The position numbers were made by a program, and so were the translations under genes. From Pleurocapsales cyanobacterium LEGE 06147 (GTDB lineage Bacteria > Cyanobacteriota > Cyanobacteriia > Cyanobacteriales > Xenococcaceae), in the NCBI GenBank assembly GCA_015207585.1, contig JADEWQ010000040.1, forward strand, positions 1-47,599: a stretch of DNA of 47,599 bases, written 5' to 3'. Of the stretch, positions 33,873 to 46,613 are shown piece after piece (positions within the stretch are counted from its first letter, which is position 1; every line of letters starts with the position of its first letter). The notes under the pieces were generated by a model. It was not told the origin of the DNA. It saw only the letters and a program-made list of their open reading frames with translations, and ran no database searches.

Positions 33873-34495
33873 TTAACGAGTATTTTCGAGCCTCATTGGC
33901 ACGCCACCAGCAGGAGCGAGGGTAACACCGCATGGTAGCTAACTTTATTTCCAATTGCGCTAATGCTTTCCAGAAAACGTTCTGGTTTAAATTGTTTCGG
34001 TTCCGGATAAAGATCCTCGCGCTGGTGAGTTAAGTAGATGCTGCCTACGACTACCGTTCCTGGTTCTAGCTCGTAACCCAATAATTCCATGGGTTGTTGG
34101 ACTACTCTGGGAAAAGTCAGCATTGCTACGGGGTAAATACGCAAAGTCTCCTGGCAAACAGCGGTTAGATAGGGTAATTTTGCTATTTCCATCGGACTGG
34201 GAAAGTCGTCCAGCTTCTCTAATTCCGCTAACAGTTGCTGGCGGACTTTTGGTAGGCGGTGAATCCAGTATAAAGCCCAAGCTATGGCCGTAGCGGTTGT
34301 TTCGTGTCCGGTCAACATCAGCGTCATCAACTCATCTCGCAATTGGCGATCGCTCGTTAATAGCTGCTGAATTCCTTGAGGATGATTGACATAAACGAGA
34401 TTATTGCCAAAACCAATTACCTCCGCAGTAAAAAGATTGGGATGCTCTAAGGCTGCCTTTTCCATCAAACCGACAGGAGCCGCAATCCAATTCAA
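33873..34495 (-). pseudogene. Cytochrome P450 relic with two internal deletions
   Basis: The frame starts with a P450 N-terminal part (NLFTAEVIGFGNNLVYVNHP) that runs for only 50 residues before jumping at LLTSDRQLRDELM straight to the I-helix LMLTGHETTATAIAW, skipping about 200 residues. The K-helix (CQETLRIYPV) and the KPERFLE segment follow, but the heme-ligand loop with its cysteine is gone. In another frame the true end GVTLAPAGGVPMRLENTR appears, stopping at 33873. So two deletions and a frameshift make it non-functional. A full family member has about 450 residues. The first junction coincides with a HIP1 octamer (34346-34353). Confidence 0.85.
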
Positions 34496-39312: not shown

Positions 39313-40554
39313 ATGAAAATTGCCATTATCGCTTCTGGATTTCTTCCGGTTATTGATGGCGTAACTGTCAGTGGATTCTCTCGCTTAGAAAAACTGAGCC
39401 AGTGGGGACACCAGGTATTGTTTTTTTGTCCCGATTACAGTTGTTTAGAACCTCTTTACCCTAATTGGCAAGATTACACGGGCAATATTCTACCTGGAGT
39501 AAGAGTAGTAAGTCTCAAAAGCATGCCTTTTTTTGTCGATTTTGAAACCAATATCGGTTGGGGTGCTTATCGGCAATTGCTCGAAGAGTTAAGACAATTT
39601 CAACCAGAAATTATTCATGTGGACGAACCAGAAAGATTATTTATCGGTATTTGGCGATTTGTAGAGCTTAAATATGCACGTCAGGCTGGTATTCCCTGCG
39701 TTGGTTTTTTTCGTACCAATTTTCTCGAATACATCGAAGATTTTTTACCTTTACCGAATCTTCTCCTTAAGTTGCCGAAATTTTTGGTTAAAAAACTAAT
39801 TACTTTTGTTTATAATCGCTACGATGCCACCCTAGTCTCTAGTACAATTACCCAGCAGAAACTAATTCAATTAGGCATTAATAATCTTATTTACGGTAAC
39901 TTTTTGGGTTTCGACCGAGATAAGTTCCATCCCACTCTGCGTCAAGCTAATTTTTTTGCTCATAAATATGGATTAACCGAGGTAGAGCGACAAGTAAAGT
40001 TAATCTTTTTAGGCCGTTTAACTCCTGATAAAGGTTGGGACTTTACCCTTGATACCCTGCCGCAAATTTTTCAACAAATCGAGCCAGACAAAATTGCTAT
40101 TCTTATTGTTGGCGATGGGGAAATGAAAGAGGAAATTGTCACCCGATTGGGTAAATTTACACCTCACGTTCATCTATTGGGAAGAGTTTCTCCAGATAAA
40201 ATTCCCGCAATATTAGCTAATAGCGACCTTCACGTAACTGCCTCCGAAAAAGAAACCAGAGGATTAACTATTATAGAAGCTTTTGCATCGGGAATTCCCG
40301 TCTTAGCACCCCGCGCTGGAGGAGTAAGGGAAAATATTGAAGATGGAATTAATGGATTCTGCTTTACTCCTCAGGATAAACAGGATTTTATTCACAAGCT
40401 CAAGTTGCTGATAGAGAATCCTACTTTGCGGCAGGAGATGGGTTTGCGGGGAAGAAATTTAGTGGCGAGCAAATATAGTTGGGACGAGACAGTGGGAAAT
40501 TTATTACATGTCTGGCAAGAGCAAATTACTGTTAAATCAACTAAAAACCCATGA
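39313..40554 (+). CDS. GT4-family glycosyltransferase
   Basis: This 413-residue GT-B retaining glycosyltransferase has an N-terminal glycine-rich start (AIIASGFLPVIDGVTVSGF) and a C-terminal nucleotide-sugar half with FLGRLTPDKGWDF, LLGRVSPDKIPAILANSDL, and the family EX7E region ETRGLTIIEAFASGIPVLAP. It resembles SqdX-like and lipid or glycoside-forming enzymes but is not clearly SqdX. It sits 6 bp after the MFS gene, and its stop overlaps the start of the STAND gene by 4 bases. Confidence 0.85.
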   Translation: MKIAIIASGFLPVIDGVTVSGFSRLEKLSQWGHQVLFFCPDYSCLEPLYPNWQDYTGNILPGVRVVSLKSMPFFVDFETNIGWGAYRQLLEELRQFQPEIIHVDEPERLFIGIWRFVELKYARQAGIPCVGFFRTNFLEYIEDFLPLPNLLLKLPKFLVKKLITFVYNRYDATLVSSTITQQKLIQLGINNLIYGNFLGFDRDKFHPTLRQANFFAHKYGLTEVERQVKLIFLGRLTPDKGWDFTLDTLPQIFQQIEPDKIAILIVGDGEMKEEIVTRLGKFTPHVHLLGRVSPDKIPAILANSDLHVTASEKETRGLTIIEAFASGIPVLAPRAGGVRENIEDGINGFCFTPQDKQDFIHKLKLLIENPTLRQEMGLRGRNLVASKYSWDETVGNLLHVWQEQITVKSTKNP

Positions 40555-43500
40555 CTGCTGAAGAAGCTCTGGCAACTCTAGAGATAATTGTTGGTAAAGA
40601 GCCTTTAAATGAGATTCAAAGACTCGTTTTCCTTCAAGCGTGGGAACAAAAGACTTATTCTGAGATTGCTGAAAGTGCAGGTTACGATGACAGTTACATA
40701 AAATTCGTAGGTTTCCAGCTTTGGAAACTCCTCTCTGCCATCGTAGGCGAGAAAGTAACAAAAAGTAATGTACAATCGGTGCTTAGGCGGTTCGTCCTTG
40801 AGAAAGCAAGTGAGGAAAAAGCTTCAACTGCCAATTTCTCTTTAAGTCAAAATCAACTCCACAAAGCACAAAATCCTTCTCGCTTAAAATTCCCAATCCA
40901 AAATCAAATAGATTGGGGCGAAGCGATTGATGTTTCCCTTTTCTATGGACGTGTTGAGGAATTAGCGACACTCAAGCACTGGATCGTTCAAGACAACTGC
41001 CGATTAGTTGCCTTGGTAGGAATTGGTGGGATTGGTAAAACAGCTCTGTCTATTAAGTTAGCCCAACAAATTCAGGAACAATTTGAGTATGTGATTTGGC
41101 GATCGCTTCACAACGCGCCTTCCCTCCCATCCCTATTGGCAACTTTAATCCAATTCCTCTCCAACCAGGAGGATATCGATTTATCTGAAGCTATCAGCGA
41201 TCGCATTACTAAACTATTGAATTATTTGCAAAAGCATCGCTGTCTCATTATTCTCGATAATGCAGAGACTGTCTTAGGTACTCGCCGTAGAAGTGATTAT
41301 CGCGCTGGATATGACGGCTATGGCGAACTCTTTAGACGAATAGGAGACTCACCTCACCAAAGTTGTCTGGTGCTAACCAGTCGAGAGAAGCCCAAGGAAG
41401 TAGCAATTCGCGAAGGAGAAACACTGCCTGTACGCTCTTGGCAATTATCGGGTTTAACGGCAAAAGAGGGGCTAGCAATCTTGAACAGTAAGGGCAACTT
41501 CTATGGAACGGAAAATGAATGGCAGAAGTTAGTTAACTCCTATGCGGGTAATCCCTTAGCTTTGAAAATTGTCGCCACGACGATTCGCGATCTATTTAAC
41601 GGCGATATTGCTCAATTTCTGTCTCAAGGCACTGTCGTTTTTGGAGATATTCAAGATCTGCTCGACCAGCATTTCCATCGCTTATCAGACCTAGAGAAAG
41701 AGATAATGTGTTGGCTAGCGATCGATCGCGAACCAGTCACCATTAGCCAACTTCAGTCCGATCTGCTATTGCCTTGTTTCCCCGAGCGAGTCTTAGCGGT
41801 CTTAGAATCTCTAGAACGACGCTCACTCATTGAAAAAAGCCAAACGCTGTTTACACTTCAACCCGTACTCATCGAGTACCTGACGAAACGATTGATTCAA
41901 CAAATATGCTGGGAAATTCAAAGCCAAGCAATTGCCGATCTCAAAACTTATGCTTTGATCCAAGCAAAAGCTAAAGACTATGTCAAGGAAACCCAAATTA
42001 AGCTAATCCTTAAGCCGATTGCCGAACACCTTCTTCGAACATTTGGGACGACAGATAAGATCGAAGAGCGATTGCTCAAAATCCTCTCAAGCCTACAAGG
42101 CAAACTGCCTATCGAAACCGGATATGCAGGGGGAAATACAATTAATTTACTGCGTCACCTCAGGTGCGATCTGAGCAATCAAGATTTTTCGCGTCTAACA
42201 ATTTGGCAGACAGATCTTGAGGGAGCAATTTTACGCGGATGTAATTTTTCTGGTTCGGACTTATCCAAATCAACTTTTACGGAAAACTTCAGCCATATTT
42301 ATTCGCTGGCCATTAGTGCCGATGGCAAGTTAATTGCCTCAGCCGATACCCATGGCGAAATTTGTTTGTGGCAAGCTAGCGACGGACAGCCGCTTCTGAC
42401 TTGGGCAGCACACACCGGGACTATTCGTTCGCTTGAGTTTAGTCCCGATGGGAAAACCCTAGTTAGTGGCGGGGACGATTGCCTCATTAAACAGTGGGAT
42501 GTTGCCACGGGTCAGTGCTGTCAAACCTTGCGAGCACATCAAAATGTAATCTGGTCTTTAGCTATCAGCCCAGATGGTCAAACCTTGGCTAGCAGCAGTG
42601 CTGATTGCACGATCGAACTCTGGAATCTCAACACGGGGCAAGTTTTGAGAACCTTATCAGAACGACCTAGGTGGGTAATGTCACTCAGGTTTAGTCCTGA
42701 CGGTCAAATCTTAGCGGGTAGCGTTGTCGCTGTGGGAACTCTCAAGTTGTGGGAAGTTGCGACAGGTGAAGTGGCGAGAACTTTGCCTGCCCATCAAGAT
42801 ACTGCTTGGTCCCCCATCAGTTTTAGTCCCGATGGTCGAATGCTCATCAGCGGTGGAATGGATCGCAGCTTGCGCTGGTGGGATCTGGAAACCGGACAGT
42901 GCTTGAGAGAGCTTAAAGCGCATCAGGATTGGATTTGGTGGGTGGCATGCAGCCCCAATCAGCCAATGCTAGCTAGTTGCAGTGCCGATCGAACGGTTAA
43001 GGTGTGGGATATCAACACGGGTCAACTGCTCAGAACGTTCCGGGGTCACGAATATGGAGTGCGAGTGGTCTTGTTTAGTGCTAATTGCCAAACCTCGATC
43101 AGTAGTGATGAAGGACAAATGTTGAAGGTATGGGATCTTCAGACGGGACAGTGCCTGAAAACCCTGCGAGGATACAGTAGCGGTGTGTGGGCTATAGCCT
43201 TTAGCCCCGATGGTCGAACCCTCGTCAGTAGCGGCGAAGACCAAACCCTAAAATTGTGGGATGTACAAACGGGTTGCTGCCTAAGAAGTCTCAGCGGGCA
43301 TCAAGTTTGGGTTCGTTCTGTTGCCTTTAGTCCCGATGGTCAGACGGTGGCGAGTGCTGGAGTAGACAGTTTGGTAAAACTGTGGCGGGTTAGCACGGGT
43401 GAGTGCTTACGAACGTTCCAGGGGCATACCAGTTTTGTCTGGTCCGTTGCCTACAGTCCCACCGAGTCAACCCTAGCCAGTTGTAGCATTGATAGAAGTG

Positions 43501-44180
43501 TGCGCATTTGGGACCTCAAGACAGGTCAATGTCGGCTAGTTTTAGACCACGCGAGTCCAGCGATCGCAGTTACCTATAGTCCAGATGGACAAAAGTTAGC
43601 CAGCTATGGCATTGACCGGGAGATACGCCTGTGGGATGTTCGTACGGGTGAATGTCTGAAGATCCTGCAAAGTCACTCTGATTGGGTTTGGTCGATCCTG
43701 TTCGATTGGATCTGGTCGATCGTGTTTAGCCCAGATGGTCAAACCCTAGCCAGTAGTGCAGAGAATTGTTCGATTCGGATTTGGGATGTCGTGACGGGTC
43801 AGTGCCTTAAGGTATTGCAGGGACATACCAGTCCCGTTGTCTCTGTTGCCTACAGTTGGGATGGTGAGAAACTCGCCAGTGCCAGCATGGAACCAACTCT
43901 TAGAATTTGGGATGCTCGCACGGGTCAATGTCTGAGAGTGTTGGCAGGACATACAAAGTGGGTTTATTGCGTTGCCTTCACCGTGCTGCCTGGCAATTCC
44001 TCGCCCGTGCTGGCTAGTAGCAGTGAGGATCGCACGATTCGCTTTTGGGATATCGACACGGGTGAATGTCTCAAAGTGCTTAGAAGTGAAAGACCCTACG
44101 AAGGCATGAAGATTACCAATGTCCTTGGCTTAACTGAGGCGCAGCGATCGCGTCTCAAAGCGTTAGGAGCAATTGATTGA
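40551..44180 (+). CDS. NB-ARC/WD40 STAND ATPase
   Basis: This 1209-residue signal-transduction NTPase has an N-terminal helical, winged-helix-like domain (about 1-80, MTAEEALATLEIIVGKE) seen in STAND proteins. The NB-ARC follows with the P-loop GIGGIGKT at 157-164, Walker B CLIILDNAE at 231-239 and GNPLALKIV. A short pentapeptide-like stretch (DLSNQDF to SDLSKSTF, before residue 580) precedes 14 WD40 blades, enough for two propellers. STAND proteins switch on after ligand binding by the repeats. The ATG overlaps the preceding stop, so translation is coupled to the GT4 gene. A 24-bp tandem duplication (43680-43727) adds eight residues in blade 11/12. GC looks higher than its surroundings. Confidence 0.88.
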   Translation: MTAEEALATLEIIVGKEPLNEIQRLVFLQAWEQKTYSEIAESAGYDDSYIKFVGFQLWKLLSAIVGEKVTKSNVQSVLRRFVLEKASEEKASTANFSLSQNQLHKAQNPSRLKFPIQNQIDWGEAIDVSLFYGRVEELATLKHWIVQDNCRLVALVGIGGIGKTALSIKLAQQIQEQFEYVIWRSLHNAPSLPSLLATLIQFLSNQEDIDLSEAISDRITKLLNYLQKHRCLIILDNAETVLGTRRRSDYRAGYDGYGELFRRIGDSPHQSCLVLTSREKPKEVAIREGETLPVRSWQLSGLTAKEGLAILNSKGNFYGTENEWQKLVNSYAGNPLALKIVATTIRDLFNGDIAQFLSQGTVVFGDIQDLLDQHFHRLSDLEKEIMCWLAIDREPVTISQLQSDLLLPCFPERVLAVLESLERRSLIEKSQTLFTLQPVLIEYLTKRLIQQICWEIQSQAIADLKTYALIQAKAKDYVKETQIKLILKPIAEHLLRTFGTTDKIEERLLKILSSLQGKLPIETGYAGGNTINLLRHLRCDLSNQDFSRLTIWQTDLEGAILRGCNFSGSDLSKSTFTENFSHIYSLAISADGKLIASADTHGEICLWQASDGQPLLTWAAHTGTIRSLEFSPDGKTLVSGGDDCLIKQWDVATGQCCQTLRAHQNVIWSLAISPDGQTLASSSADCTIELWNLNTGQVLRTLSERPRWVMSLRFSPDGQILAGSVVAVGTLKLWEVATGEVARTLPAHQDTAWSPISFSPDGRMLISGGMDRSLRWWDLETGQCLRELKAHQDWIWWVACSPNQPMLASCSADRTVKVWDINTGQLLRTFRGHEYGVRVVLFSANCQTSISSDEGQMLKVWDLQTGQCLKTLRGYSSGVWAIAFSPDGRTLVSSGEDQTLKLWDVQTGCCLRSLSGHQVWVRSVAFSPDGQTVASAGVDSLVKLWRVSTGECLRTFQGHTSFVWSVAYSPTESTLASCSIDRSVRIWDLKTGQCRLVLDHASPAIAVTYSPDGQKLASYGIDREIRLWDVRTGECLKILQSHSDWVWSILFDWIWSIVFSPDGQTLASSAENCSIRIWDVVTGQCLKVLQGHTSPVVSVAYSWDGEKLASASMEPTLRIWDARTGQCLRVLAGHTKWVYCVAFTVLPGNSSPVLASSSEDRTIRFWDIDTGECLKVLRSERPYEGMKITNVLGLTEAQRSRLKALGAID

Positions 44181-44221: not shown

Positions 44222-44256
44222 GAAGAAAGGCGCTCCTAGAAAGAGCGCCTTTCTTC
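44222..44256. terminator. Strong bidirectional terminator
   Basis: A perfect 14-bp stem, gaagaaaggcgctc (44222-44235) and gagcgcctttcttc (44243-44256), has a 7-base loop. It sits between the convergent STAND gene and psbA, 42 bp and 88 bp from their stops. The outer bases provide T-rich 3' arms on both strands. Confidence 0.75.
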
Positions 44257-44343
44257 AGCTGTCGGTTAGTTAATTTGACAACCACACCTTGACAATTACA
44301 CGGCGAAAAGTACCAACTCACTCGACAACTGAAAGCTCAGAAG

Positions 44344-45444
44344 TTAACCATGGCTAGGGAGCACGGGAGCTGTTAGAGTTATAGGGCTCGCCTCGCCGGC
44401 TGCTAAGTCTAGCGGAAAGTTATGCGCATTGCGCTCATGCATCACCTCAAAGCCTAGGTTGGCACGGTTCAACACATCTGCCCAAGTAGCGATCGCGCGA
44501 CCTTGAGCATCCAGCACGGACTGATTGAAATTGAAGCCATTGAGATTGAAGGCCATGGTGCAGATACCTAGGGAGGTGAACCAGATCCCAATGACTGGCC
44601 AAGCAGCAAAGACAAAATGAAGGGTGCGACTGTTTGCTTCAGCACCTAGAACTTCATTTGTCCGTCCGAGCAAGCGACCGAGATAACCATGAGCTGCCAC
44701 AATGTTGTAGGTTTCTTCCTCTTGACCGAACTTGTAACCGTAGTTCTGAGACTCAATTTCAGTCGTCTCGCGCACCAGAGAGGAGGTTACTAAAGAGCCA
44801 TGTAAGGCAGAGAGTAATGCACCACCAAATACACCTGCCACGCCAAGCATATGGAACGGATGCATCAGGATATTGTGCTCAGCTTGGAAGACAAACATGA
44901 AGTTAAAGGTGCCACTTATGCCCAGGGGCATACCATCTGAGAAAGACCCTTGTCCGATGGGGTAGATGAGGAATACAGAAGTGGCAGCTGCTAAGGGAGC
45001 GCTATAGGCAACACAAATCCAAGGACGCATGCCTAAGCGATAGCTAAGCTCCCACTGACGACCCAGGTAGCAGAAGCAACCAATGAGGAAATGAAAGACG
45101 ATTAACTGATAGGGTCCGCCATTGTAGAGCCACTCATCCAAAGAGGCTGCCTCCCAAATAGGATAAAAGTGCAGACCAATGGCATTGGAGCTAGGAACAA
45201 CCGCACCAGTAATAATATTATTGCCGTAAAGCAGGGAGCCAGAAACCGGCTCGCGAATGCCATCGATGTCTACTGGCGGAGCAGCAATGAAGGCGATGAT
45301 GAAACAGGTGGTAGCCGTCAAGAGAGTGGGAATCATCAACACGCCGAACCAACCTATGTACAGTCGATTATTAGTACTAGTGACCCACTGACAAAATCGC
45401 TCCCACAGATTAGCACTCTCGCGTCTTTGTAAAGTCGCAGTCAT
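44344..45444 (-). CDS. psbA: Photosystem II D1 protein with altered QB-binding loop
   Basis: This 366-residue D1 keeps Y161, D170, E189, H190, H198, H215, E244, Y246 and H252. The C-terminal Mn-ligand block is in [14 protein letters not shown], at H336, E337, H341, D346 and A348 (standard numbering plus four). Q130 is the low-light (D1:1-like) residue. The QB-binding loop is different: after YLGRLL comes [11 protein letters not shown] before NSRTLH. Standard D1 has seven residues there (including S264 and F265); this one has eleven, with no counterpart of them, and F255 is L. So water oxidation parts look intact but QB binding should be changed. W131 and the Mn ligands exclude ChlF. The C-tail ([13 protein letters not shown]) is a CtpA-removed extension. 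Convergent with the STAND gene. Confidence 0.93.
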
Positions 45445-45511: not shown

Positions 45512-45548
45512 TTGAAAAAATCTTATTAAAGTTAATTCACTTTTGTCA

Positions 45549-45610
45549 GTTACTAACTAGTTATAATTTGAAGGTAGTAACTTGTTTTTAACATTAAAAA
45601 AGTTAGTAAC
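45549..45610 (-). promoter_or_regulatory. Repeated tagtaac motif upstream of psbA
   Basis: The 7-mer tagtaac occurs at 45575-45581 and 45604-45610, with its reverse complement gttacta at 45549-45555. The outer pair extends to gttactaac and gttagtaac. Three copies within 62 bases, about 105-165 bp ahead of psbA, suggest a regulator binding array. Confidence 0.45.
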
Positions 45611-45736: not shown

Positions 45737-46613
45737 TTGATAAGAATTATTGCTCTTGTTGTTCATACTTGGCGATCGCTTTTAGCAGATAAGAATACGA
45801 TCGAGAACTACTACGGTAATCTTTCGTTTGATGTGAATCCGCGCAACAACCTCAGTTTAGATATCTCCAAAATAACAAGTCGTCGTGGGTTGCTTTACTT
45901 CGGCTTTCCGTTGCAGCGCGATCGCCTCGATCGTGATGCACTAAATATCGGATTATCTTGGCAATCAATGCTGGGTCAAGGGGAAGACTCAGAATTAAAA
46001 ACTACCCTGTCTTTTAACCAAGATTACTTTAACACCTACGGTCCTACGCGAAATATTTTCTACCGAACTGGAACTCTCAACTCGCGGGCACTTAACGGCA
46101 GATTAGAGCACAACTGGCAGACCGCTGGGGTGTAGAGACGATCGCCTCGGCATCAGTGAGGGACAGTGGGAAAATGTGGGTTTAGTTAGTACAAATGGAC
46201 TAGAAGTGGCACTGAATTGAAGAATTTCGCCACAATGGACTACTTTTCTGAACTATACTTATACCGATGCAGAAATTGAAACTGGTCCGCAGCGGGGTTT
46301 GCAGTTTGCTCTCATTCCTTATTCCGTCGCTCAATGGGGAATAGGTTATACTTCTCCTGGTGACTGGCGAGTCAACCTATATGCAAATTACTATAGTGGT
46401 GCGCGACGAGCACTCTTTACCAATCCAGAAGACACGATTACAGACTTTTCACCTCCTTGGATTAGTTTTGATTTAGGACTGCAAATCCCTATCTTCGAGA
46501 GAGTGCAGCTAACAGTTTTCTTGGAAAATTTAACAGGCAATACTTACGAGAAAGCTCATAGAATTTACCAACCTGGTTTGACTTTTCGGCTCGGTCTTCA
46601 GTCAGCTTTTTAA
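45737..46613 (+). pseudogene. Decayed TonB-dependent outer-membrane receptor
   Basis: Two frames together spell the C-terminal beta-barrel of a TonB-dependent receptor, normally over 650 residues. The first (to 46135) has barrel strands such as YYGNLSFDVNPRNNLSLDI and LKTTLSFNQDYFNTYG. After a frameshift near 46120 and a further switch, the end appears: TTFLNYTYTDAEIETGPQ, then YSVAQWGIGYTSPGDWRVN, then VFLENLTGNTYEKAHRIYQPG and a final aromatic, F. A TGA stop at 46218-46220 interrupts it. The plug and N-terminal barrel are missing. It once imported siderophores or similar; none of the transport partners is here. Confidence 0.8.

Follow-up and report, generated by a model that had tools for sequence, protein, structure and literature searches.

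The window, a stretch of 47,599 nucleotides from the genome of Pleurocapsales cyanobacterium LEGE 06147, encodes a D1 protein in which the loop that holds the secondary quinone (QB) has been replaced. The question raised by this locus is whether a photosystem II (PSII) containing such a protein could still oxidise water and, if so, what a rebuilt QB pocket might be for. A sequence-only reading of the window had described a D1 with a replaced QB loop four residues longer than usual, a change of F255 to L and an intact set of water-oxidation ligands, and we could read each of these in the sequence. The open reading frame of the gene is intact and its product passes the curated cut-off of the TIGR01151 psbA model (749.2 bits against 596.05). 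In alignment with chain A of PDB 6wj6, the sole gap is one of four residues in the QB loop. The coordinates of the gene had been given correctly, with no strand; it lies on the minus strand (Table 1). Eleven residues (260-270) stand where standard D1 has FQYASFN (260-266), and both S264 and F265 are gone (residue numbers are those of standard D1; the window protein runs four higher after the loop).

Table 1. Features of the psbA locus in the window (positions counted from the first letter of the window)
Feature	Position	Strand	Basis
psbA, D1 with replaced QB loop, 366 aa	44344..45444	minus	ORF, translation, psbA model, alignment to solved D1
Codons of residues 260-270, rebuilt QB loop	44635..44667	minus	sequence; alignment (24 further class members, 40 G4 sequences)
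Codon of L255 (F in standard D1 and in 23/25 class members)	44680..44682	minus	alignment
Possible promoter: CTGACA (45544-45549), 18 bp, TAAGAT (45520-45525)	45520..45549	minus	comparison with upstream regions of relatives
TATAACTAGTTAGT, two mismatches from class operator box	45552..45565	minus	operator scan
STAND (NB-ARC) and WD40 protein, 1209 aa, convergent with psbA	40551..44180	plus	NB-ARC and WD40 models

The residues around the Mn cluster and TyrZ, among others, are kept in the window D1 (Y161, D170, E189, H190, H198, H215, H252 and H272), as are those of the C-terminus (H332, E333, H337, D342 and A344). A PSII built with this protein should thus, as the sequence-only reading proposed and as far as ligands can tell, be able to oxidise water. 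Judged from its codons, the gene is under purifying selection: compared with the nearest relative (L049), dN was 0.074 and dS 2.7 (saturated), giving a dN/dS of about 0.03. The predicted structure of the window D1 reached a pLDDT of 52.5, too low to be of use. The genome of the window holds three other psbA genes, two of them standard (88 and 86% identical to the window copy). The third (L004, G000:C91:20173) is 71% identical and has lost Mn ligands, with E170, D189, S333 and V342, so that at least three D1 types coexist in this genome.

We searched 388 sampled genomes of the window's taxonomic class with the loop as query and obtained 23 matches in 22 genomes, that of the window included, all at E values of 6.3e-16 or lower; ordinary D1 loops started only at 5.8e-9. 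Within the window's family the loop was found in one of 27 genomes, namely the window's own, which indicates a patchy distribution. A degenerate DNA scan of a second collection returned 23 stretches, of which 18 encode loop-class D1 in named cyanobacterial records and five are unrelated; the 18 largely repeat the sequences from the loop query, and the only new full-length proteins among them were L048, L049 and L050. The records come from Leptolyngbya, Nodosilinea, Adonisia, Phormidium, Halomicronema, Coleofasciculus, Gloeocapsopsis and other cyanobacteria, and a loop-pattern scan of viral contigs revealed no carriage of the class by phages. This recurrence rules out an assembly error as the source of the loop.

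In a tree of 82 of the 89 distinct D1-like proteins (at least 340 aa; one D2-like row was removed), the 25 distinct full-length members formed one clade inside the G4 D1 proteins with a support of 99/91. One further class sequence, a fragment of 146 aa lying at the end of a contig (L018/L045; neighbourhood L100), does not enter the protein and upstream counts. When the loop columns were removed, the free tree split the class (three changes); holding the class together under the same treatment gave a log-likelihood 1.96 higher and an AU p of 0.53 (rows L004, L028, L083 and L142 were left out of this test). A single clade is thus allowed, though not shown, by the sequence of the protein outside the loop. 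Three further D1 genes were seen beside the class. One of them (L029:1273-2358, genome G047) has a QB loop two residues longer (VFQTFAFWGANSR), I255 and A at 264, with all Mn ligands kept; it sits on a long branch, weakly placed beside the class (84/73). Another (L146:312-1391, genome G417) has W260 and E in place of D at 170, keeps the other Mn ligands and branches off at the base of the water-oxidising D1 proteins. In Leptolyngbya sp. PCC 7375 a psbA (L139, G413:C5:8063268-8064340) is split between two overlapping frames, which looks like a frameshift, and a D1 that has lost Mn ligands is encoded some 10 kb away.

The loop itself takes two forms. In 23 of the 25 distinct full-length members it is five residues longer than in standard D1, reads GR(T/M)NExxLGxxA and is accompanied by F255; the four-residue form occurs in only the window and L016 (genome G121), both of which also carry M214L and F255L. 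These two proteins stand far apart in the D1 tree, yet they have in common these two changes in the same pocket. Their DNA shows no clear rise in identity at the loop, which makes a recent gene conversion there unlikely. We looked for class-specific positions, defined as those with a residue common to at least 80% of the members and rare in 40 G4 sequences (a set without 17 divergent rows from outside the class), and found 259, 260, 261, 262, 263, 264, 266 and 276, that is, the loop and position 276. A glutamate of the loop aligns with S264.

The available parts of PMC4030317 describe QB as hydrogen-bonded by S264, H215 and F265, with much of the binding of its head group coming from F255 and F265. 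S264 and F265 are replaced in 25/25 members, and the loss of QB contacts anticipated from the window holds for the whole class. A site that has lost two residues that bind and protonate QB (according to the same parts of PMC4030317) could be closed, and PSII that does not reduce plastoquinone normally might represent an assembly, storage or sentinel state. We consider this improbable. Every one of the 25 members retains H215, H252, H272 and the full set of Mn ligands, whereas the known D1 types that do not oxidise water have lost Mn ligands (for example L004 and L139-L143). The retention of the three histidines, together with purifying selection, does not support a closed QB site or an assembly role. 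The sequence-only reading, which had offered an altered or closed site, was thus right as to the alteration, and its suggestion of an assembly-state variant found no support.

The class might also correspond to a D1 type that has already been described, such as the D1INT of Fischerella, or to another named group. The diversity of D1 has reportedly been surveyed in Sheridan et al. 2020 and Cardona et al. 2015, and both surveys fall outside our literature search, which covered titles and the starts of abstracts; among the matches listed, none described the loop class. In the portions of Kim et al. 2025 (PMC12096807) available to us, the S264/F265 region is structurally well conserved across D1 groups and no such loop is described; the words Leptolyngbya and Nodosilinea are absent from the main text of that paper. 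D1INT is marked by W126 and W260 (PMC9740203, in part), whereas position 260 is G in 25/25 class members and position 126 is Y in the rows shown. D1INT resembles the loop class in being a less common, G4-like isoform that is changed at acceptor-side residues and accompanies standard copies. Two proteins of the D1INT type (L121 and L130, both with W126 and W260) have a loop of standard length and stand elsewhere in the tree, and their genomes also hold a member of the loop class. The absence of both tryptophans and the separate place in the tree rule out D1INT.

Far-red D1 is marked by Y120 and T155 in the accessible text of PMC9740203; the class has L120 in 25/25 members, and T155, present in 24/25, is found in most G4 rows as well. 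The ChlF and rogue/sentinel proteins of groups G1 and G2 resemble the loop class in being extra D1 paralogues with a changed QB region. The G1/G2-like rows (L004 and L139-L143) have lost Mn ligands, whereas D170, E189, H332, E333, H337, D342 and A344, as well as Y161 and H190, are present in 25/25 class members, which rules out this identity and upholds the distinction from ChlF and rogue/sentinel D1 made in the sequence-only reading. M173 in place of P173, which we take to be the marker of G3 (D1'), was found in L030, L031, L140_2 and L144, while all 25 members have P173. With the class failing to match D1INT, far-red, G1/G2 or G3 proteins, we regard an already described class as very improbable.

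The DNA around the class members offers a clue to function. In 19 of 25 neighbourhoods (one of the 25, L100, has no upstream DNA) a gene upstream of psbA and divergent from it encodes a TetR-family regulator of 212-270 aa, TetR_N being found in 13/13 proteins scanned. Counted by distinct members, a TetR of this type (c1) lies upstream in 19/25, or in 20/25 with a longer flank of L108, where small ORFs separate the TetR from psbA. None of 49 other psbA genes has such a TetR upstream (flanks of 492-1500 bp). All 19 TetR-flanked intergenic regions contain TTGACA, together with one or more palindromes that differ from about ACTAACnnGTTAGT at no more than two positions. A TAnnnT follows the TTGACA after 17 bp in 15 of these loci and after 18 bp in three more. 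In 16 of the 19 promoters the palindrome is paired at a spacing of 50-51 bp, with one copy a few bases ahead of the -35 and the other beside the -10.

The operator box with at most one mismatch was found at 20/25 members compared with 0/49 other psbA genes. Scanning 15 genomes for the 16-mer operator gave nine exact matches, all at loop-class psbA, and six of the eight one-mismatch matches were also there; with up to two mismatches the 16-mer was not enriched genome-wide in these genomes (71 matches compared with 120 for a reversed control). The TetR and the palindromes look like a dedicated repressor system, in which the binding of one to the other is what their arrangement suggests. The linkage of loop-class psbA to a TetR and palindromes is, from the sequences compared, the new element here.

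Relatives of this regulator occur away from psbA. There were 28 unlinked TetR matches at E values of 1e-30 or lower, and the neighbours of 21 were covered, two of these lying in the window's genome and the others at 19 loci. Nineteen of the 21 adjoin genes for Rieske proteins (8), FAD monooxygenase-like proteins (7; the broken L227 was placed in this FAD_binding_3-type count by its likeness to L228), glycosyltransferases (2, including the truncated L197) or HlyD efflux proteins (2); of the remaining two, L213 has a CRP-like regulator as neighbour and L223, as judged by eye, transposase genes. The two same-family TetRs of the window's genome (G000:C113:18859-19491 and G000:C198:26281-26925) adjoin a truncated glycosyltransferase and a FAD monooxygenase. 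In a TetR tree constructed without L223 and L225, 17 of the 19 linked TetRs formed one group (100/99); the linked TetRs L098 (genome G121) and L088 (genome G037) fell among unlinked ones. A single clade of linked TetRs was disfavoured (AU p 0.018, for a grouping by linkage that was set after earlier trees had been seen), so a sensor of this family seems to have been acquired more than once. This tree suggests that loop-class psbA repeatedly recruited its regulator from a TetR group that elsewhere mostly adjoins detoxification-type genes.

Five members are without a TetR (the window, L009/L090, L019/L101, L049 and L050). In each of the five a STAND (NB-ARC) and WD40 protein of about 1200 aa is encoded beside psbA (that of L050 is cut by the end of the contig), and these proteins have 46-71% mutual identity. 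Such a protein lies upstream in 4/25 class members and at 0/49 other psbA genes, a control that covered upstream sides only (492-1500 bp); the window's gene lies on the downstream side of psbA, opposite to its relatives. The window protein is its genome's best match to the one encoded divergently from the Coleofasciculus member (57% identity). No Pfam match, and no DNA-binding domain, was found in its N-terminal 110 aa. A separate 'c2' match at L089 was a chance WD40 match (24-31% identity). As a speculation, the STAND/WD40 protein is a candidate sensor or regulator in the TetR-less subgroup.

The predicted -35 of the window gene is weaker than the TTGACA of the TetR-linked members, and an operator box with no or one mismatch is absent from the window promoter, as is a TetR beside the gene. 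The box with two mismatches that precedes the promoter (Table 1) may be a remnant or a chance occurrence. Upstream of the five TetR-less genes are TAACT repeats, mostly 10-13 bp apart, which run into the weaker -35 and might, on slender grounds, suit an activator. Elsewhere in the window, two short plus-strand ORFs upstream of psbA (45737-46613) appear by eye to be broken pieces of a TonB-dependent receptor, and an ORF at 33893-34495 appears to be a cytochrome P450 with parts missing. Between the STAND gene and psbA, which converge, lies a GC-rich inverted repeat (44223-44258) that may terminate transcription of both.

We lean towards the proposal that the loop-class protein is a reserve, inducible D1 that replaces the normal D1 when a PSII inhibitor occupies the QB site. 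In most members a TetR-family repressor would sit on the palindromes around a strong promoter and silence the gene. An inhibitor, probably an aromatic natural product or other PSII poison, would bind the repressor and turn the gene on. Since D1 turns over fast, the tolerant D1 could then take the place of the sensitive one during repair. Once installed, the rebuilt D1 would oxidise water and hand electrons on via a pocket that lacks the contacts inhibitors normally use; compounds that displace quinone by using S264, F265 and F255 would bind poorly, and water oxidation would be left untouched. In the window's subgroup, lacking the TetR, the adjoining STAND/WD40 protein may, speculatively, serve as the sensor.

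The TetR, the palindromes and the detoxification-type neighbours of the TetR relatives favour inducible tolerance of QB inhibitors over a generic photoprotection. The proposal also draws on the confinement of nearly all class-specific residues to the loop and on M214L and F255L, found together in both members with the four-residue loop. Against tolerance stand the absence of a TetR and a clear operator in the window and four other members, and the placement of the window's STAND gene, which differs from that in its relatives; the TetR could also sense an internal metabolite. No biosynthetic cluster for an inhibitor was noticed by eye in the flanks. In the simulation described in the available text of PMC4030317, atrazine touches F255, M214 and H215, and modelling led to the proposal that a polar acceptor replacing F265 could strengthen atrazine binding; by that proposal, the loss of F265 with a glutamate nearby need not mean tolerance.

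The main rival to inhibitor tolerance is tuning of the acceptor side, in which the loop would shift the redox potential, exchange or protonation of QB to suit a stress state (for example strong light, disturbed redox balance or a changed quinone pool), with an internal signal acting on the regulator. All electron-transfer and water-oxidation ligands are kept, in keeping with tuning, and the accessible part of PMC9740203 presents several D1 isoforms for different conditions as common in cyanobacteria. TetR proteins sense metabolites as well, and the nearest solved relative of the linked TetR is RutR. The relatives of the regulator, however, mostly adjoin detoxification-type genes, and a D1 retuned in general should show changes beyond the loop, of which there are almost none. 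We consider tuning unlikely, though well worth keeping in view. The photoprotective variant raised by the sequence-only reading gained no specific support, with the neighbourhood favouring inhibitor tolerance; as photoprotective tuning it is still conceivable.

A recurrent class that drops S264 and F265 and keeps all water-oxidation ligands would represent another workable design of the acceptor site. The linkage to TetR and operator leads to the testable claim that PSII inhibitors are strong enough ecologically to select for a dedicated replacement D1, and the linked TetR would be a ready sensor for finding the natural inhibitor. Whether the wider picture holds is, in our judgement, evenly balanced: that of an inducible target replacement in PSII, with a TetR recruited more than once, a naturally tolerant D1 and a STAND/WD40 type of control in the window's subgroup, all shaped by chemical warfare at QB.

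The loop class can be set against known systems on three sides. Compared with standard G4 D1 (such as chain A of 6wj6), it is alike overall, at about 83-90% identity, and keeps all ligands of Mn, TyrZ, P680 and the non-haem iron together with the C-terminal processing region; it differs at 259-266, which are replaced and four to five residues longer, at S264/F265 and in its upstream regulation. Triazine-resistant D1 alleles of plants and algae, S264G among them, have in common with the loop class the loss of S264 in the QB pocket. Those alleles are point mutations, whereas the loop class appears, from the genes compared, to be a replacement of the whole loop, carried on a separate gene beside sensitive copies. 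TetR-controlled resistance modules, of which TetR with tetA is an example, have a divergent TetR and promoter palindromes, as do most loop-class members; the adjacent divergent TetR is present in 20/25 members and not at the window copy. The relatives of the loop-class TetR adjoin oxygenase, glycosyltransferase and efflux genes. In contrast to such modules, the controlled gene here is a photosystem core subunit, presumably a replacement of the target itself.
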